Shown piece by piece: positions 2,655 to 56,750 of a stretch of DNA of 64,000 nt. Below the pieces are notes generated by a model. It made no database searches, was not told the DNA's origin, and saw nothing but the letters and a program-made list of their open reading frames with translations. The DNA is taken from positions 223,777,323 through 223,841,322 of the forward strand of contig CM053140.1 of the NCBI GenBank assembly GCA_028571685.1, written 5' to 3'. The first letter of the stretch is position 1. Each line of letters starts with the position of its first letter. The DNA is from Heterohyrax brucei (taxonomy: Eukaryota; Chordata; Mammalia; Hyracoidea; Procaviidae). A program made the translations under genes and the position numbers.

Positions 2655-2686
2655 GGTGGCACTTGGCTGGCTTGGATGATCTAGCA
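2655..2686 (+). mobile_element. Possible tail-only SINE micro-insertion
   Basis: The string 'tggtggcacttggctggctt' matches the right end of the 'ggcacttggctggc' SINE subfamily and nothing else of the SINE is present. TAGCAT occurs just before and just after it, a possible short target duplication. The duplication is too short to be decisive. Confidence 0.45.
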
Positions 2687-3474: not shown

Positions 3475-3885
3475 CTCAAGGGTACACACAATCTTCATTT
3501 GCCATAGCCAAAATCTGGAAACAAATAAATATCATTTCATCAGTGAATGGATAAACAGTTGTGGTACACCTCTACAATAGATTACTACTTTGCAATAAAA
3601 TACTTTATGGGGCAGTTTTTCTCTGGCCTCTAGGGTCATCATGAGTCAGATCTGACTCGACAGCACTGGGTGTATGTGTGTGTTGCAATAAAAATTAATA
3701 GACCACTGAAATATACAATAAAATGGATGTGTTTCAAGAACATTATGTGAAAAAAAGCTAGTTGCACAATGTTCTATACTGTATGATTGCCTTTACATAA
3801 AGTTCTGAAAAGGCAAATCCCTAGTGAAAGAAAGTAGAAGCATATTTTTGGTTCACAGGGAAGTAGGAGCGAGAGCATCAACTGT
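3475..3885 (+). mobile_element. Old L1 3' UTR, plus, split by a SINE tail
   Basis: Blocks such as 'aaatctggaaacaaataaat', 'gtgaatggataaacagttgtgg', 'tagattactactttgcaataaaa' and, after the interruption, 'atggatgtgtttcaagaacattatgtga' and 'actgtatgattgcctttaca' are in the order of mammalian L1 3' sequence. It hosts the micro-insertion at 3601-3682. Confidence 0.7.
3601..3682 (+). mobile_element. 5'-truncated SINE tail, 82 bp, with 11-bp duplication
   Basis: Only the right part of the SINE is present ('tttatggggcag...agggtcatcatgagtcagatctgactcgacagcactggg' and a TG-rich tail). TTGCAATAAAA occurs at 3590-3600 and again at 3683-3693, immediately flanking the insert, inside L1 sequence that continues on both sides. 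This supports true target-primed insertion of a truncated copy. Confidence 0.8.
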
Positions 3886-6520: not shown

Positions 6521-6578
6521 TGGAACTTGACTGAACCATTTAATTTTCTAGATCCTACAAGTTTTCTGGCTTTGGCAA

Positions 6579-7104
6579 TGTCATGTACTGAATTCTGCCC
6601 CCCCAAATATAGGTGTAGCCATGTGTCTGGGCCATGATTTCCAGTATCTTGTAGTTGTCCTCCATTTTGTGATTTTTCCTATGCTGTATGTTAAAGGATT
6701 AGTGTGGGACTGTAAATCCCTCCATAGGATCACCTCCCTGCTCCACTGTAAAGAGAGTTTCCCTGGAGTATGGCTTGCACCACCCTTAATCCTTTTGTCC
6801 CACAAGAAATAAAAGGAAAGGGAAGCAAGTAGAGAATGGGGAACTTTACACCACCAAGAAAGCAGCACCAGGAGAAGAGCGCATCCTACAGGCCTGAGGT
6901 TTTTGTGTCAAGATGCTCCCTGGACAAAGACTGATGCAATACAGGACTTTCCTCTAGAACTGACAAGGGGAAAAGCTGTCCCCTGGAGTGGACATCTTGA
7001 ATTTGGACTTGTAGCCTACCAGACTGTGTAAGAATAAACTTTCCTTTGTTAAAGCCATCCACTCGGTGGTATTTCTGTTAGAGCAGCACTAGCTGACTGA
7101 AACA
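6579..7104 (+). mobile_element. Solo MaLR/ERVL-like LTR with duplication GGCAA
   Basis: The element starts TGTCATGTACTG and ends GACTGAAACA. GGCAA lies immediately before (6574-6578) and after (7105-7109). It shares the whole block order with 2070-2570, including 'tatgttaaaggattagtgtgggac', 'agagtttccctggagtatggc', 'gcagcaccaggagaagagc' and an 'aataaactttcctttg' polyadenylation region. Confidence 0.85.
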
Positions 7105-7147
7105 GGCAAGGTGTAGTCCTTCCAATTTTCTATAGCTTGTTTTAGTA

Positions 7148-7175
7148 GGACAGACTCGACGGCACTTGGCTGGCA
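7148..7175 (+). mobile_element. 28-bp SINE-tail micro-insertion with 8-bp duplication
   Basis: The insert consists only of the last bases of the SINE ('gactcgacggcacttggctgg'). TTTTAGTA is present at 7140-7147 and again at 7176-7183. This is the shortest convincing tail-only insertion in the window. Confidence 0.7.
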
Positions 7176-7387
7176 TTTTAGTAAGAAGTATTTTTCTTTC
7201 TCTGACAGTTTTCCATCTTACACAGGTTCTGACTTTCACATGTTTTTACTGTATATTTTTTGTTCCATCATATTTTCAAATAAAAACAATATAATAAATG
7301 GGGCATACTTAGATACTATGGAGTATTGAAAAGCTATCAAAAATCAAAGTATGAAAATGTTTTGATTCCTCAAAGTCACTTCTGGGA

Positions 7388-8200
7388 ATCTGTTGTTGAT
7401 AGTGTTGTTAGATGCCATCAAGTTGACCTCTGTATTAGTTATCTAGTGCTTCTACAACAGAAATACCCCAAGTGGATGGCTTTAACAAAGTGAACTTTAT
7501 TCTCTTAAAGTCTCAGAGGCTAGAAGTCCAAATTCAGGAGGGCAGACACAAAGGAAAGATTTCTCTCTCAGCTTTGAGGAAAGTCCTTGTCATTAGTCTT
7601 TCCCAGCCAAGGAGCTACCCTGTGCAGGGACTTCAGGTCTATAGCAGGCACTATTCTCCTGGCTCATGTGGTATGACTTCTCCATGTCTCTCTTCTCACT
7701 TTCCTCTTTTATATCTCAAAAAAGACTGATTTAAGATACAACCTAATCATGTGATTGAGTCCTGCCACGTTAACACAACTGCTGCTAATCCCACCTTATT
7801 AACATCATAGAGGCAAAATTTACAACACAGATGATTCACATCAGATGACAAAATGGTGGACAATCACACCATACAAGGCATCATGGCCAGGCCAAATTGA
7901 TACACATTTGGAAGGGGGCACAATTCAATCCTTAACAGTTCATGACTCATGGTAACACCATGTACAATGAGATCAGACAGATGTGACCCATTGGCTCATT
8001 TTCAGAAGTAGATCACCAGGCCTTTCTCCCTAGACTAATTTAGACTGGAGCTCTGCTGAAACATATTCATTATCATAGAAGTACACAAGCCTCCACTGAC
8101 AAAACTGCAGTGATTATGCATGAAGTTCATTGGCCAGTGTTTCAACCCAGTTCTCCCACAGGAAAGGCAAGAATTCTACCACTTCCCTCTCTAGGGATGT
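7388..8200 (-). mobile_element. tRNA-Gly-headed composite SINE, minus, split by an LTR
   Basis: The parts are 7388-7430 ('gttgttagatgccatcaagttg', the RTE-like tail) and 7938-8200. In the second part 'agaagtagatcaccaggcctttctccctag...ggagctctgctgaaaca' matches the RTE 5' UTR in reverse. The right end, 'attggccagtgtttcaaccc...aggcaagaattctaccact' at about 8127-8185, is the reverse of a tRNA-Gly-like sequence (compare 'gtggtagaattcttgcct'). The LTR at 7431-7937 separates the parts. I infer a SINE with a tRNA-Gly head and an RTE-derived body and tail. Confidence 0.6.
7431..7937 (-). mobile_element. MaLR/ERVL-like LTR, minus, inside a SINE
   Basis: It begins 'tgtattagttatctagtgcttctacaac' and ends 'gggggcacaattcaatccttaaca', the reverse of the family ends. 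The reversed polyadenylation region ('aagtgaactttattctctt') lies near the left. The middle differs from the 2070-type copies, so this is another subfamily. No clean target duplication is visible. Confidence 0.7.
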
Positions 8201-8745: not shown

Positions 8746-8807
8746 TATGAAGTTCTAGATGAATAAGAACTCACAGCAACAATGGCAAAGAAAATTATAG
8801 CACCAAT

Positions 8808-9005
8808 TACTATTGTTGTTGTTGTTATGTACCATCAAATTGGTTCCAACACAGCAATCCTATGTACAACAGATTGAAGCATTATCTGGTCTTGCATCAT
8901 CCTCACAATCATTACTATGTTTGAGCACATTCTTGCAGCCGCTGTGTCAATTCATCTTGTTGAAGGTCTTCCTTTTTCATGGACCCTCCACTTTACCAAA
9001 CATTG
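8808..9005 (-). mobile_element. RTE LINE 3' end, minus, 5'-truncated
   Basis: It opens with a GTT tandem tail and 'atgtaccatcaaattggttcc', then 'cctatgtacaacagattgaagc', 'tgcatcatcctcacaatcattactatgtttgagc', and 'cttgttgaaggtcttcc...tactttaccaaaca' type sequence. This is the same order as the RTE 3' end at 19775-19990. Only the non-coding 3' end and the last part of the ORF are retained. Confidence 0.7.
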
Positions 9006-15488: not shown

Positions 15489-15520
15489 AAGCCAAGCCAA
15501 GTGCCGTCGAGTCGGATCCG
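15489..15520 (-). mobile_element. About 30-bp SINE tail inside an L1 3' UTR
   Basis: The segment 'gccaagccaagtgccgtcg' followed by 'agtcggatccg' is the reversed SINE right end. L1 3' UTR text ('gaagaacatca' ... 'aagacataag') continues on either side, as judged against other L1 copies here (22975-23100). Only about 3 bp (AAG) could be duplicated. Confidence 0.6.
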
Positions 15521-28907: not shown

Positions 28908-28970
28908 GCCAGCCGGCCGGATCCAACTCATGGCGACCCTAGGGGCCAGGGTAGAACTCTGGGGTCAGTT
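28908..28970 (-). mobile_element. 63-bp SINE tail with 12-bp target duplication
   Basis: The insert opens with the reversed SINE right end ('gccagccggccggatcc') and continues into 'aactcatggcgacccta...gtagaactctggggtcag'. CTACTCTTGATT occurs at 28896-28907 and 28971-28982, a perfect 12-bp duplication. The tRNA-like half was never copied. Confidence 0.85.
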
Positions 28971-30466: not shown

Positions 30467-31690
30467 TGACGCTGCTGTTAAACATCCAAGGGAGAAATCA
30501 GAAATACTATGATTGAAAATAACCAAAAGGTTGAAAAGGAAATTATGTATGTATTTGCTAGGTTTTCACACTGACAATAGCCTATATGCTATGTGTGGTG
30601 GTGGGGTGATTACATGGCAAATGCAATCACTTAGAGGAAAAATTGGAAAGGGTGATTGCTGTCACATTACAAATCCAATATAGTCATATCCAGTCTCTTC
30701 TAAACAACTTCAAATAAAATTCACACATGCACACACATGTAAATTCATGCACATTTTGTGCTACCAAGCTAAAATAGCAATCAACAGAGCTTTAATTAGG
30801 CAGCTTGATGGTCTGTGGATAGTATCACAGGCTGGATGTGAAGGAGCAATGGTTTGAAAAAAGGCGAGACCAGACAGTAAGGCAGACAGAGACTTCACTA
30901 TGGACCATGGAAGGCAGATGAGCTAAAGGTTTTCTGAAGATTATAAGGAAATTTCAGGTGAATTCAAGCGAACAACATCCACAAAAGACAGCAAGAGGCA
31001 AATGTAACATGGAGCTGGATGTGGGGGGGGGGTGGGTTATGGATAGGAAGATGGGGTGGAGTATGGGAGTTGGGAGCTAGAAGCAGGTAAATAAGGGAGA
31101 ACAAATGAAGAGGGTAAGAGAAGTTATTGTAAGTGTGGGTATATGCTGGGAGTTCAGGCAACAGGATCTTTGTTTCTTTCTTGGATTGAAAAACTGAAAT
31201 TTATCTATCTTCCATTTGTGTGTATGTGTGTGTATGCGCATGCGTGTGTGTGTGTTTTCCAGGATGTTCTCTCATTAACCGCATATTGTTGTCACTTTAC
31301 GTACACTTCTTGGCATTCTCAATCCTCTCCAGAGACTTATATGGCAATTGCTTCTTGTTTTTGTTAGATGCCACTGAGTCAGTTACAAACCTGTAATTTC
31401 CACCCAGTCCTATCTCCTAAACAGCAGACCCATCTACCTGCCTACCAAACATTTTCACTGATATGTCCTGCAGCACAGTGTTTGTAGTGCTAGAGAGTTA
31501 TACTTTTCTTCTAGTCTCCTTGTATCTTCTATCTCAGGCCATCACGATCCACCTGATTACTCAAAGATGTGCCTTGGCTCTTCCACATGTCCACATGTCC
31601 ACTAGGTCACAAATGCATTAACCTGCAATTGCTGACTTAAATGTTTTTCTCCGTTGCTTGTCTATGAACTACTCAAAAATAACCATACAT
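30467..31690. other. Mostly unannotated DNA with a TG-rich run
   Basis: A (TG)n-rich microsatellite lies at about 31205-31256. The 31355-31400 stretch ('gttagatgccactgagtcag') may be a small SINE/RTE tail remnant. No gene is supported. Confidence 0.35.
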
Positions 31691-31699
31691 ATAGCATGT

Positions 31700-31735
31700 C
31701 GGATCCAATTCGACGGCACTTGGCTGGCTTGGCTA
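31700..31735 (+). mobile_element. SINE tail fragment
   Basis: 'gtcggatccaattcgacggc' followed by 'acttggctggcttggc' is the right end of the SINE subfamily, alone. I could not find a duplication. Confidence 0.6.
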
Positions 31736-34205: not shown

Positions 34206-34629
34206 AGAGTAAAGATAGAGTGAACAGCCCCTACTTGTTTGTCAGTATAGGCCTGCTTGTTGCTGTGATGCTGGTATTTAGGTAGCAGCAGGCTCACTCA
34301 TGGTAGACAGGTTTCAGTTGAGCTTCCTGACAAAGACAGACTAGGAAGAAGGACTGAGCAGTCTACTTCCAGAAAAAGAAAAAAAAAAAAAAAAAAAAAC
34401 TTAGCCAGGGAAAATCTCATGCATAGCAGCAGAACATTGTCAGATACAGTGCCAGAAACTGAGCCCCCCAGATTGGAAAGCACTCAGAAGATGACTGGGG
34501 AAGAGATGTCTCCTGAAAGTGAGGCAACCTTAACGTTGTGGATGGAGTAGAGCCTTCGGGAATCTTCATTTGCTGATGTGGCACTACTCAAAATGAGAAT
34601 AAACAGCTGTAAACATCGATTAATAATCG

Positions 34630-37310
34630 GAACATGGAACGTACAAAGTATGAATCTAGAAAATTGGAAATCATCAAAAATGAAATGGAATACATAAACA
34701 TCAATATCCTAGGCATCCCTGAGCTGGAATGGAGGGGTATTACCCATCTTGAATCTGACAATCACATGGTCTATTACGCTGGGAATGAAAACTTGAAGAG
34801 GAATAGTATTATGTTCATCATCAAAAAGAACGTTTCAAGATCTGTCCTGAAGTACAGTGTTATCAGTGATAAGATAATACTCATACACCTACAAGAGGGC
34901 CAGTTAATTGGACCATCATTCAAATTTATGCACCAACCCCTAAGGCCAAAATTGAAGAGACTGAAGATTTTTACCAGTTTCTACAGTCTTCAACTGATCA
35001 AATGCACAATCAGGATGCATTGATAATTACTGGTGACTGGAATACAGATGTTGGGAACAAAGAAGAAGGATGCCTAGTTAGAAAATACAGCCTTAGTGAT
35101 AGAAATAACGCCAGAGATCACATGATAGAATTTTGCCAGACTAGTGAGTTTTTCATTGAAAATACGCTTTTTAACCAACATGAAAGGTGACTGTACACAT
35201 GGACTTCACCAGACGGAAAACATGGAACCAAACTGACTACATTTGTGGAAAAAGACAATGGAAAAGGTCCATTATCAGCAGTCAGAACAAGACCAAGTGC
35301 TGCCTGTGGCACAGCTCATCAGTTGTTCATATGCAAATTCAAACCGAAACTGAAGAAAATTGGAACAAGTACACAAGAGCCAAATTATGATCTTGACTAT
35401 ATCCCTCCTGAGTTTAAAGACCATCATGAGAGCAGATTTGATATGTTGATCACTAATGGCCAAAGACCAGATGAACTGTGGAATGACATCAAAGACATCA
35501 TCCATAAAGAGAGCAAGAGGTCATTAAAAAGATAAGAAAGACCAAACTGTATATCACAAGAAACTCTGACATTTGCTCTACAACATCAAGCAGCTAAAGT
35601 AAAAGGAATAAAAAGGGAAGTAAAAGTGAATTTTCTAAACAGAAAATTTCAAAGGGAAGCTGGAGAAAACAAAATCAAGTATTATAATGATATGTACAAA
35701 GAGCTGGAAATGGAAAGCTGGAAGGGAAGAACACATTCTACATTTCTCAAGTTATTGAAAGAACTCAAGAAAATATTCAAGCCTCAAGTTGCAATAATGA
35801 AGGACTGATTATACAGGGAAACTTTAGAGAGCATCAAGACAAGATGGAAGGGACACACAGAATCATTATACCAGAAAGAAGTGGCCAAGGTTCAATCATT
35901 TGAAGAGGCAGCATGTGATCATGCACCGATGGTACAGAGGAAGAAGTCAAAGCTTCACTGAAGGCACTGGCAAAAAAACAAGGCTCCAGGAATTGACGAA
36001 ATGTCCGTTGAGATATTTCAGGAAATACGTGAAGTCCTAGAAGTGCTCACTCATCCATGCCAAGAAATTTGGAGGACAGTTACCTGGCCAACTGAATAGA
36101 AAAGATCCATATTTACACCCATTCCAAAAAAAAAGTGATCCAGCTGAATGCAGAAATTACTGAACAATATCATTAATAAAACAGGTAAAATTTTGCTCAA
36201 GATCATTCAAAAACAACTGCAACAGTATATTGACAACATACTGCCAGAAATTCTGGATTCAGAAAAGGACATGGAATCAGGGATATCATTGCTGATGTCA
36301 GATGGATCTTGGCTGAAAGCAGAGAATACCAGAAAGTTGTTTATCTGTGTTTCATTGACTATTCAAAGGCATTCGACTGTGTAGACCATAACAAATTATG
36401 GTTAACATTGTGTAAAACTGGAATCCAGAACACTTAATTGGGCTCTTAAGGAATCTGTATATGGATCAAAGGCAGTCGTGTAAACAGAACAAAGGGACAC
36501 CACATGGTTTAAAGTCAGGAAAGATGTGTGTCAGGGTTGCATCTTTTCACCATACCTTTTCAATACGTATACTGAGAAAATCATCTGAGAAGCTGGATTA
36601 TACAAAGAAGAATAAGCCATCAGGATTGGAGGACAACTCATTAACAACCTGCATCACACAGACTACACCACCTTATTTGCTGGAAGTGAAGGTTTGAAAC
36701 ACTGATAAAGATCAAGGACCACGGCCTTCAGTATGGATTGCACCTCAACATCAAGAAACCCAAATCTTCACAACCAGACCATTAAGCAACATTGTCATAA
36801 ATGGAGAATGAATTGAAATTGTCAAAGGTTTTCTTTTACTTGGTTCCACAAACAATCAATGCCCATGGAAGCAGCAGTCAAGAAATCAAAAGACACATTG
36901 CATTGGGAAAATCTGCTACAAAAGATCTCTTTAAAGTACTGAAAATAAGGATGTCACCTTGCAGACTAAAGAACACCTAACTGAAGTCATGATATTCTCA
37001 ATGGCATCATATACATGCAAAGGCTGGACACTGAATAAAGAAGACAGAAGAATGGATGTCTTTGAATTGTGGTGTTGGAGAAGAATGTTGAATGTACCAT
37101 AGACTGCCAAAAGAACAAACAGTTCTGTTGTAGAAGAGGTACAACCAGAGTGCTCCTTGGAAGCAAAGATGGCATCTTACATTCTTTGGACACGTTGTCA
37201 GGAAGGATCAGTCCCTGGAGAAGGGTATCCTGCCTGGTATAGCGGAGGATCAATGAAAAAGTGGAAGACACTTGACGAGATGGATTGACACAGTGATTGC
37301 AACAATGCCT
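34630..37310 (+). pseudogene. RTE ORF relic: endonuclease and reverse transcriptase
   Basis: RTE elements encode one protein with an AP-type endonuclease followed by a reverse transcriptase, which nicks the target and copies the RNA at the nick. Here the start is near 34634. The first 129-codon piece (34634-35023) covers the early endonuclease, and after a shift the next piece (35002-35190) shows the GDWNTDVGN landmark. Later pieces include 35245-35535 (linker), 36148-36384 (early RT) and 36350-36400, where the FIDYSKAF-like motif A region is visible. The YADD-type site near 36655-36680 is out of frame with its flanks ('cacagactacaccacctt'). Stops and frameshifts run throughout. Confidence 0.85.
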
Positions 37311-37680
37311 TTAAGCAGAGAAACAATTGTGGATATGGTGCAAGACCAGGCAGTGTTTTGCTCTGTTGTCATAGGGTCACTATGAGTAAGAACTGCCTCG
37401 ACAGCACCTAACAGCAACAAAAATAGGTGCAAGAGCAGGATCAGCATCAAGTTTGAAACTAGTGCATATATTTCATTAGCTAGAAAACCAGAGATATGGA
37501 AATATTGAGAAAGATGCTTATCTGCCTCATACTGCATGTATCTTAGAAGAGCTTTGTTTGAAAGGAAAAGAATATCTATTGCAAATAGGAAAGATTCTAT
37601 GAAGTCTATGATAAACCCCAATGTTAAGAACAAAGTTTTTTTAAGGTTCAAAGTGACTTTAAAAGTCACTTGCAGTTTTC

Positions 37681-38452: not shown

Positions 38453-38655
38453 CCCACCGCCATGAGGTGGCCGTGAGTCAGATCCGACTCTACAGCACTT
38501 GGCTTTTGGCTAGCCGTAGAGTTGGATCTGACTCATCTTGACCCTAGAGGTCAGAATAGAACTGCCCCATAGAGTTTCTAAGAAGCATGTGACAGATTTG
38601 AACTGCCAACCTTTTGGTCAGCAGACACAGCACTTAACCCACTACAGCACCACGG
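38453..38655 (-). mobile_element. Two SINE pieces, head-to-tail inverted
   Basis: First comes a short plus-strand tail (38460-38510: 'gtgagtcagatccgactctacagc' then 'acttggcttttggc'). Then a minus-strand AfroSINE (38512-38655) runs from 'gtagagttggatctgactcatc' to 'gcacttaacccactacagcaccacgg'. Facing tails suggest one inserted at the tail of the other. Confidence 0.7.
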
Positions 38656-38774
38656 TTTTAGGAAAAGATGGATCTCAAAACTAACTCCTCTGATTAGTAC
38701 TGCCTGGTATGGAAGCCTTGAGACATTGCCGTTTGTGGGCTGTGCCAGTGAAATCTACTTTTAACACGACATTA

Positions 38775-42834: not shown

Positions 42835-45800
42835 TCATACAGTATTTGTCCCTTGTGGCTGACTACTTTCACTCAACATAATGTCTTCCAGTTGAAACCA
42901 GGTTAGGAGATGTTTTCTGGAATCATCGTTATTCTTTATCATTGCGTAGTGCTCCATTGAGTATATGTACCATAGTTTACCTATCCACTCTTCTATTGTT
43001 GGGCATCTGGGTTGATTCCATCTTTTTGCTATTGTGGACTGTGCTGCGATAAACATTCTGGTGCATGTGTCCATTGGTGTGAAAGGCCTTGATTCTGTAG
43101 GATACATTCCAAGTAGTGGAATGACTGGATCAAATGGTATATCAACATAAATTTTTTTAAGGAAGCGCCAGATTGCCTTACAAAGAGGCTGGACCATTTT
43201 GCAACCCCACCAACAGTGTAGGAGGGTTCCACTTTCTCCACAGCCTCTCCAGCATTTGTTGTTTTGTGTTTTCTGGATCATGGCCAATCTTGTTGGGGTG
43301 AGATGGTATCTCATTGTTGTCTTGATTTGAATTTCTTTAATAACTAAAGATCGTGAACATGTCCACATGTGTTTTTCGGCTGCCTGGATCTCCTCTTTAG
43401 TGAAGTGTGTGTCCATCTCATTTGCCCATCGCTTAATTGGATGGCTTATCTTCTTCTTATTGATATTTTGTAGTATCTTATAGATTATGGAGATCAGGCG
43501 TCGGTCCAACATAGAGTTGCCAAATATTTTTTCCCATTCTGCAGGTGTTCATTTAATTCTATTAATAAAGTCTTTGGATGAGCAAAAGTGTTTGATTCTT
43601 AATAGTTCCCATTTATCTATTTTCTCTTCTGTTGATTGAGGTATCTTTGACAGATTTTGGCGTCTGTCCTCATTGTGTATTAAAACTTCCATTGTTGTTC
43701 CTACCTTTTCTTGGATGAGCTTTCTCGTTTTAGGTTTGATATTTAGGTCTTTTATCCAGTTGGAGTTGGTTTTTGTATAAGGTGTAAGATATGGATCTTG
43801 ATTCAGTGTATTGCAGATGGATAACCAATTTTGCCAGCACCATTTGTTGAAAATACTGTTTTTACCCCAGTTTAATGTCTTAGGGCCTTTGTCGAATATC
43901 AGCTGATCATAGGCAGATGGTGTCATCTCTGGGGTCTCAGTTCTGTTCCACTGATCGATCTGTCTGTTCTTGTACCAGTACCAGGCTGTTTTGACCACCG
44001 TGGCAGTGTAGTATGTTCTAAGGTCGGGTAATGAGAGACCTCCCAGTGTGTTCTTCTTCTTTAGTAGTACCTTACTTATCCGGGGCTTCTTTCCTTTCCA
44101 AACAAAATTGGTGATTTGTTTCTCCATCTCATTAAAAAATGATGCTGGAACTTGTATTGCGATTGCATTATATAAATAAATTGCTTTGGGTAAAATAGAC
44201 ATTTTCACAATGTTAAGTCTTCCTATCCATGAGCAGGGCACGTTTTTCCATTTATCTAAGTCTCTCTTAGTTTCTTGTAGTAAGGGCTTGTAGTTCTCTT
44301 TGTACAGGTCTGTTGTTTCTCTGGTAAGATAAATTCCTAGGTACTTTATCTTCTTAGCGGCTATTGTAAATGGTATTGATTTGATAATTTCCTCCTTAAC
44401 AGTCTTGTTGTTGGTATAAAGGAATCCTACTGATTTACTTATGTTTATCTTGTATCCTAAGACTTTGCTGAACTCTTCTATCAGTTTGAGTAGCTTACTT
44501 ATAGATTCCTTGGGGTTCTCTGCATATACAATCGTATCATCTGCGAACAGGGAGATTTTAACTACGTCTTTGTCAATGCAGATGTCCTTTATTTGTTCGT
44601 CTTGTCTAATTGCTCTGGCTAGAACTTCTAGCACAATGTTGAATAGGAGAGGTGAGAGTGGGCATCCTTGTCTAGTTCCTGATCTCAAGGGAAAGTCTTT
44701 CAGTCTCTCTCCATTCAGGATGATGTGGGCAATTGGCTTTGTATAAATGGCCCTTATTGTGTTGAGGAATTTGCCGTCTATGCCCATTTTGCTAAGAGTA
44801 TTTAGCACGAATGGGTGTTGGACTTTATCCAATGCCTTTTCGGCATCAATGGACAAAATCAGGTGATCCTTGTCTTTTGTGTTATTTATGTGGTTAATCA
44901 CATTAATTGTTTTCCTGATGTTGAACCAGCCTTGCATCCCTGGAATGAATCCCACTTGGTCATGATGGATTACTTTCTTGATATGTTGTTGTATTCTATT
45001 GGCAAAAATTTTGTTGAAGATTTCTGCATCTAGGTTCATGAGTGATATCGGTCTGTAGTTCCCTGTCTTTATTGGATCTTTCCCTGGCTTAGGTATGAGG
45101 GTTATGCTGGCTTCATAGAATGACTTTGGGAGTACTCCATCCCTTTCTATATTGTGAAATAGTCTCAGTAGTATTGGGGATAACTCTTCTCTAAATGCTT
45201 GGTAGAATTCTGCCGTGAAGCCATCTGGGCCCGGACTTTTTTTGGTTGGCAGTGTTTTGATGACCTTTTCAATCTCTTCCTTTGAGATGGGTTTATTAAG
45301 TTATTCTGCTTCACATTGTGATAATTTGGGTAGGTGATATGAGTCAAGGAATTTGTCCATTTCCCCTAGGTTTTCAAATTGGGTCTTTCATACTATTCTG
45401 TTATGATATTTTTGATTTCTGTTGCATCTGTGGTTACAACTCCCCTCTCATTTCTAATTTGGGTTATTTGTTTCCTTTCCTGCTTGTCTTTAGTAAGTTT
45501 AGCCAGTGGTATATCAATTTTGTTGATCTTTTCAAAAAACTTTGGGTCTTTTCAATTTTTTCAATTGTTTTTCTATTCTCTAATTCATTTAGCTCTGCTC
45601 TAATCTTTATGATCTCATTTCTTCTGGTGCCCGAGGGGTTCCTCTGTTGTTCTCTTTCCACTTGTTCAAGCTGTAGAGTTAGTTCCTTGATTTGTTTTTT
45701 TTCTTCCTTCTAGATGTGTGCATTTATGGAGATAAACAGACCTCTGAGCACTGCTTTGGCTGTATCCCACAGGTTTTGGTAAGAAGTGTTTTCGTTCTCA

Positions 45801-56045: not shown

Positions 56046-56097
56046 TCATGGTCGCCAAGAGTTGGATCCAACTCTATGGCACTTGGCTGGCTTTGGC
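56046..56097 (+). mobile_element. 52-bp SINE tail with 12-bp target duplication
   Basis: The insert is the SINE right end only ('tcatggtcgccaagagttgg' through 'ggcacttggctggctttgg'). TCTAATAATTTC lies at 56034-56045 and 56098-56109. Confidence 0.85.
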
Positions 56098-56204: not shown

Positions 56205-56445
56205 CTCACTCTGCACCTAGGGTTGCCATGAGTCGTATCCGACTCGACGGCACTTGGCTTGGCTGGCTGCTCCAAAAAAAAGCCAAACCAAATGTGTTGC
56301 TGTTGAGTCAATTCTGACTCAGTGACCATATGGGACAGAGTTAAACTGCCCCACAGGGCTTCCAAGGAGCACCTGGTGGATTTGAACCTCTAACTTTTTT
56401 GTTAACTGTTGAGATCTTAGCTACTGCACCACCAGGGCTTCCCAC
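56205..56445 (-). mobile_element. SINE tail (plus) followed by an AfroSINE (minus)
   Basis: The plus tail is 56208-56270 ('agggttgccatgagtcgtatcc' to 'acttggcttggctggc'). The minus AfroSINE is 56280-56445 ('ccaaatgtgttgctgttgagtc' to 'ctactgcaccaccagggcttcc'). The two tails face each other across an A run, as at 38453-38655. Confidence 0.75.
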
Positions 56446-56705: not shown

Positions 56706-56750
56706 CTCATATCACTCATGGTGACTCTATAGGGCAGAGTAGAACTGGTT
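56706..56750 (-). mobile_element. SINE fragment, minus
   Basis: 'cactcatggtgactctatagggcagagtagaactgg' is the reversed right part of an AfroSINE, directly after the previous copy's tail. Confidence 0.7.

Follow-up and report, generated by a model that had tools for sequence, protein, structure and literature searches.

A 28-base retroposon 3' end flanked by an 8-base direct repeat, one of nine tail copies in a 64-kb window

Most LINE copies are truncated, and severe loss of the 5' side is ordinary among them. The RTE1 LINE, which we take to be related to BovB and to be the element called RTE1_LA in elephant, is the partner of AfroSINEs; the target sites of AfroSINEs and of this partner were reportedly analysed by Gilbert et al. 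in 2008 (Gene 425:1). A section of PMC3747384 lists AfroSINE with RTE1 as its partner LINE and gives truncated LINE members as 100-1,000 bases long. A portion of PMC13295347 describes a preference of RTE-type machinery for a T run some ten bases before the duplication start and for a TA step, the Tn-TA signature published there for RTE-type LINEs and their SINEs. For human L1, an excerpt of PMC2912911 reports that duplications of 9 bases or fewer are enriched in 5'-truncated copies made in cis, not in Alu, and orphan 3' transductions in cancer are attributed to an early stop on L1 (part of PMC13009371).

The insertion considered here lies in a window, by which we mean the whole 64-kb stretch of DNA analysed. 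The window has a mammalian and Afrotherian appearance. The parts of the insertion are as follows.

7126..7129, plus strand: TTTT run at -14 to -11 relative to the duplication, resembling the Tn-TA signature
7140..7147, plus strand: 5' target site duplication TTTTAGTA, exact 8-base repeat
7148..7175, plus strand: tail-only retroposon insert, 28 bases, of which 7153-7174 match sibling tails
7176..7183, plus strand: 3' target site duplication TTTTAGTA, exact 8-base repeat

An insert of 28 bases with an 8-base duplication had been reported in an earlier note, and its coordinates proved exact. The insert reads GGACAGACTCGACGGCACTTGGCTGGCA in the window. Over its central 22 bases it represents the 3' end of a retroposon of AfroSINE/RTE type (the names AfroSINE and RTE/BovB are those that we assume for elements in the window), and agreement with the consensus is poor at the outer bases, GGACA and the final A. 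No SINE body was detected upstream by a SINE profile, the upstream sequence being flank and then a solo-LTR-like repeat, and the tRNA-derived head with Pol III promoter boxes that marks an AfroSINE is absent from the insert. It does carry the 3' end common to the RTE-type LINE. When the window was scanned with the 21-base tail, allowing up to 5 mismatches, one exact occurrence was found and five further places at 1-4 mismatches.

To place this insert among its relatives we built a profile from five tails, which gave nine matches at E < 0.01, eight of them outside a full SINE; the match at 38535-38513 (minus strand) is part of a full SINE and was excluded. A SINE profile from five body-bearing copies added 28908, and the resulting set holds nine copies of the 3' end lacking a full SINE body in the 64-kb window, 3601 and 28908 being the only two with some SINE body. 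Weaker SINE-profile matches (E above about 0.005) were dropped, as were two LINE 3' ends (37355 and 58188) and a core fragment, 56713-56747, that lacks the terminal part; in our listing of 20 loci these three are counted neither among the 17 body-bearing SINE loci nor among the nine. The eight siblings of the 7148 insert are:

56046..56097, plus strand: 52 bases, 12-base duplication TCTAATAATTTC
28908..28970, minus strand: 63 bases, 12-base duplication, terminal sequence shortened
3601..3682, plus strand: 82 bases, 11-base duplication TTGCAATAAAA, part of SINE body present
56218..56266, plus strand: 49 bases, within the 3' duplication of the SINE at 56292-56441 (minus strand)
38466..38512, plus strand: about 47 bases (ends uncertain), in the tail of the minus-strand SINE 38510-38658, no clear duplication
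15490..15520, minus strand: 31 bases, absent from three paralogs, no duplication beyond about 2 bases
2655..2680, plus strand: about 26 bases, no convincing duplication
31698..31734, plus strand: 37 bases, no duplication found

The 52-, 63- and 82-base cases named in the earlier note are thus real, with exact repeats of 12, 12 and 11 bases. Two details depart from the earlier note: the off-consensus outer bases of the 7148 insert, and the 63-base copy, which is not a simple tail and lacks part of the terminal sequence. The 56218 copy has a 7-base duplication of its own with one mismatch (CTGCACC at 56211-56217, CTGCTCC at 56267-56273), which the exact-match scan missed. The copies 38466-38512 and 56218-56266 each stand tail to tail with an older SINE, the former lying in the SINE tail and the latter in the target duplication of its SINE, and the core fragment 56713-56747 (minus strand) likewise faces a SINE tail; an insertion preference is a possible reason for such placement. 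The sequence TATAGCATGT at 2643-2652 and 31690-31699 precedes or begins copies 2655 and 31698, either as a common 5' piece or by coincidence. That one tail type has seven copies with no body within 64 kb suggests that such copies are not rare here, in this one window, and, with nine copies in 64 kb as the basis, tail-only copies may plausibly be common genome-wide.

How readily the 8-base repeat arises by chance depends on the geometry allowed. With tight geometry an 8-base direct repeat occurs at 526 of 126,800 window positions (0.4%) and in 474 of 200,000 local dinucleotide shuffles; with loose geometry it occurs at 2,997 of 126,800 positions (2.4%). The duplication expected of an insertion by RTE machinery is present at 7148 with P = 0.002-0.024 according to geometry (0.002-0.004 for the tight one), and the loose-geometry value for 7148 alone is not significant once corrected for nine copies. 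We also measured the longest exact flanking repeat at each of the nine copies against a control of 3,000 random window positions per copy. Three siblings stood out, with 12 bases at 56046, 12 at 28908 and 11 at 3601 (p 0.001 each), and the 8 bases at 7148 gave p 0.019; for the remaining five copies (56208, 31698, 38466, 15488 and 2658 by homology start) exact flanking repeats gave p from 0.15 to 1.0. Exact duplications of at least 8 bases (range 8-12) therefore accompany 4 of the 9 tail copies, for which the loose rate gives P of about 3.6e-5. The set as a whole is thus significant where the single loose-geometry value is not. Considered singly, the duplication at 7148 is probable without being overwhelming; as a member of the set it is strong.

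Independent evidence comes from sites that preserve the state before insertion. The 15490 copy sits in a longer repeat, three paralogs of which lack 31 bases at that point; other gaps nearby in the alignment leave the ends certain to about two bases. At 38466 two other SINEs align across the site with the copy missing, and the uninterrupted form of the 56218 site is seen in the 5' duplication of its host minus-strand SINE. Because pre-insertion references exist for these three siblings, tail-only insertion is real in this DNA; no paralog spanning the 7148 site was found in the window. An imperfect duplication at 15490, ATGTCTTC/ATGTTCTTC, was rejected, since the closest paralog has both counterparts and no insert. 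This copy is a warning that, had there been no paralogs, a fortuitous resemblance would have been taken for an imperfect duplication.

The reading that we prefer, to which we give a probability of about 0.75, is target-primed reverse transcription by an RTE-type LINE that began at the tail and ended after no more than about 25 bases. In this scheme, whose enzyme and order of steps we infer around the observed 3' end, duplication and sibling insertions, RTE-clade machinery (BovB/RTE1-like, as AfroSINEs use) would nick the target near 7140, and an RNA from a SINE or LINE would supply the 3' tail on which reverse transcription was primed. Only about 25 bases would be copied, namely the tail and the 3' arm of a hairpin, before a stop inside the hairpin, and the short cDNA would be joined to the other end of the staggered break, giving the 8-base duplications. 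The 7148 insert is then an extreme case of known 5' truncation. Early-stop copying from the tail, as the earlier note had proposed, fits the kept 3' end and missing 5' side, the duplications above chance across the set, the 15490 insertion seen against three paralogs and the 7-base duplication of the nested 56218 copy. Counting against the mechanism are the lack of a paralog across the 7148 site, the lack of a duplication at 15490 and of a convincing one at 31698, 2655 and 38466, and the lack of a TA step at 7140, where the junction reads G|T. The T run fits better: TTT is found within 8-14 bases upstream of the duplication at 3 of the 5 sites that bear one, 7140 included, vs 12.9% of sampled positions (P 0.017, for 5 sites and a range picked after reading PMC13295347).

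The palindrome GAGTCGGATCCGACTC can fold into a short 3' hairpin, and the 28-base insert starts at the hairpin loop once the duplication is considered. Because the copied piece stops at this loop, stalling in the hairpin is a possible cause of the stop; this is the weakest step, and one that we infer. For 3 of the 9 copies (7148, 31698 and 15490) the alignment begins within the hairpin (consensus 39-54), in each case in the 5' arm at consensus 40-42. The fold of the SINE-tail composite was no more stable than that of shuffles (z -0.55); the 56046 tail exceeded them slightly (z -1.59), and a clear excess was confined to a hand-made LINE 3' end (z -2.88). For covariation we used 19 of 20 SINE/LINE 3' ends, leaving out the LINE end 8800-8855. 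The six-pair stem formed in 81.7% of cells, a value as high in 25 of 500 shuffles; in nine stem cells both sides had changed (17 of 500), and the stem covariation score was reached by 15 of 500. Two of the five stem measures were not above shuffles (pairs changed on both sides, 282 of 500; pair types, 324 of 500), so that covariation would lend the hairpin modest backing from alignment rows that are themselves related.

The earlier note called the insert a SINE tail. That it is a 3' end stands; the SINE label is not proven, given that the 3' end is common to SINE and partner LINE. The core GAGTC..GACT(C/T)GACGGCA occurs in both SINE and LINE 3' ends in the window, roughly the last 35-45 bases being common to RTE-type LINE 3' ends there, and the 7148 insert is too short to reach sequence that distinguishes the two. 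The scrap might accordingly derive from the partner RTE-type LINE by severe 5' truncation, a variant of the preferred explanation and not exclusive of it, which we regard as a tentative possibility. In keeping with this, 6 of the 9 copies start in the part common to both elements (consensus 28 or later), or 7 of 9 if 56218 is started at its duplication, and an 8-base duplication fits the class of 9 bases or fewer described for cis 5'-truncated human L1 in an excerpt of PMC2912911. By that analogy the 8-base duplication would lean slightly towards a LINE source, and the 11-12-base duplications at three siblings would not. Against a LINE source are also the SINE-like sequence further upstream in the 82- and 63-base siblings and the terminal repeats: those of LINE ends with a legible tail are CAA-type, unlike the tail of the 7148 insert, and none is CTTGGCTGG. 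That repeat or near variants of it end seven tail-only copies. Several SINEs end in GGTTT or T runs and one in CAA (162, minus strand), and a CTTGG tail in its own orientation was found at 0 of the 17 body-bearing SINE loci (within 75 bases past the profile match; at least three tails illegible), which leaves the SINE, too, short of being established as the source. Open-frame pieces at 34613-36697 (plus strand), with a 3' end near 37355-37430 and a CAA-type tail, read, we assume, like an RTE/BovB LINE. Pfam gave 0 families at E <= 0.001 for five open frames of the 113 listed, pieces of this LINE among them, and its presumed identity consequently rests on the 3' end. A 583-residue open frame at 43549-45300 (minus strand) presumably encodes a LINE-1-like reverse transcriptase. 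Exact pattern scans of viral_contigs and genome_contigs returned 0 matches.

All seven copies with the CTTGG-type tail lack a body, a pattern that the preferred reading does not explain. The template RNA may already have been short, a processed or decayed 3' fragment copied to completion, a variant that is also target-primed. In its favour a body is present at 0 of the 7 CTTGG-tail loci vs 17 of 20 others (Fisher p 1.4e-4, post hoc, the seven having been collected by tail; the three body-less loci beside the 17 are 56713, 28908 and 3601), but the seven copies range from about 26 to 52 bases and so show no single fixed RNA 5' end, and we consider this unlikely. Taken further, the CTTGGCTGG-tailed scraps could form a separate retroposon class. 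Its members would be promoterless, about 26-52 bases long (to about 80 if the looser siblings are counted), and would consist only of the RTE recognition hairpin plus tail or parts of these; short 3' RNA fragments would serve as templates in trans, and the scraps would not be failed copies of any full-length family. This we think improbable. Capture of filler DNA during repair of a staggered break, with no target-primed copying, would suit the 31-base sibling, which has no duplication. Such capture should take any part of an element, whereas the 3' part is retained throughout the nine copies, though in shortened form in the 63-base one, and exact 8-12-base duplications flank four of them; capture therefore seems quite unlikely, with the reservation that the nine were collected mainly by a tail profile, which favours tails, and that the SINE profile gave one core-only fragment, 56713-56747. 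Finally, the direct repeat may have arisen by chance beside an old, decayed SINE remnant, given that the loose geometry admits 2.4% of positions and nine copies were examined. We hold this to be highly improbable in view of the intact 21-base tail, the absence of an upstream body by SINE profile, a repeat that abuts the insert and the tight-geometry P.

A further consideration is the neighbourhood of the insert. The solo-LTR-like repeat at 6579-7104 (plus strand) has TG...CA ends and a 5-base duplication, GGCAA, at 6574-6578 and 7105-7109, and is matched over a long part at eight other places in the window and over a short part at one. We rejected the 7148 insert as the 3' end of this repeat, which ends at 7104 with its own duplication, the similarity of its relatives stopping at 7104-7105. 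The insert nonetheless lies 44 bases downstream of the repeat in the same orientation, and the tail-only copy 2655 likewise lies 84 bases downstream of an LTR-like copy ending at 2571, in unrelated flank. Because the flanks between repeat and tail are unrelated at 7148 and 2655, the tail is not simply part of the LTR-like repeat. No tail was seen within 130 bases after the 3' end at five of seven other LTR-like copies, and the copy ending at 7430 (minus strand) has an RTE-type tail immediately after it. A tail-like stretch near 7403-7431 was rejected as a tail-only copy, as it reads as part of an RTE 3' end whose other part lies near 7937-7990; a second LTR-like repeat, at about 7432-7937 (minus strand), appears to split the 3' end of this RTE-type LINE. 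Two of nine tail copies within 130 bases downstream of an LTR-like repeat were obtained in 30 of 20,000 random placements, or 70 of 20,000 with strands kept, in a post hoc test whose distance was set by the length of flank inspected. This proximity counts against early-stop copying at random sites, since random insertion does not account for the clustering.

Among the matches listed in the open-access literature, titles and abstracts held no description of insertions confined to the final 20-50 bases of an RTE-type SINE. Insertions so short likely fall below most repeat annotation and would be counted as unique DNA. If they are common, many small duplication-bearing insertions have been added to the genome, tail scraps record the stop points of the RTE reverse transcriptase on its own template, and the role of the 3' hairpin becomes testable from genome data alone. 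Two loose ends are of most interest: every CTTGG-tailed copy is a scrap, and two of these copies lie a short way downstream of one kind of LTR-like repeat.

Compared with AfroSINEs and RTE1, the 7148 insert has in common the LINE-type 3' end and the target duplication; it differs in having no SINE head or body, and its tail is CTTGGCTGG vs the CAA, GGTTT or T-run tails of other legible copies here. L1 carries poly(A) tails and uses TT/AAAA sites, in which it differs from the insert. Its 5'-truncated copies and orphan 3' transductions are alike in starting at the RNA 3' end and stopping early (parts of PMC2912911 and PMC13009371), but somatic L1 insertions are longer, with medians of 335 bases for orphan transductions and 390 for solo-L1 in the latter. 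The tailless retropseudogenes of Noll et al. 2015, as described in a portion of PMC5322556, are likewise short duplication-flanked pieces with ends related to RNA structure; there the 3' end is lost, whereas in the 7148 insert only the 3' end is kept.
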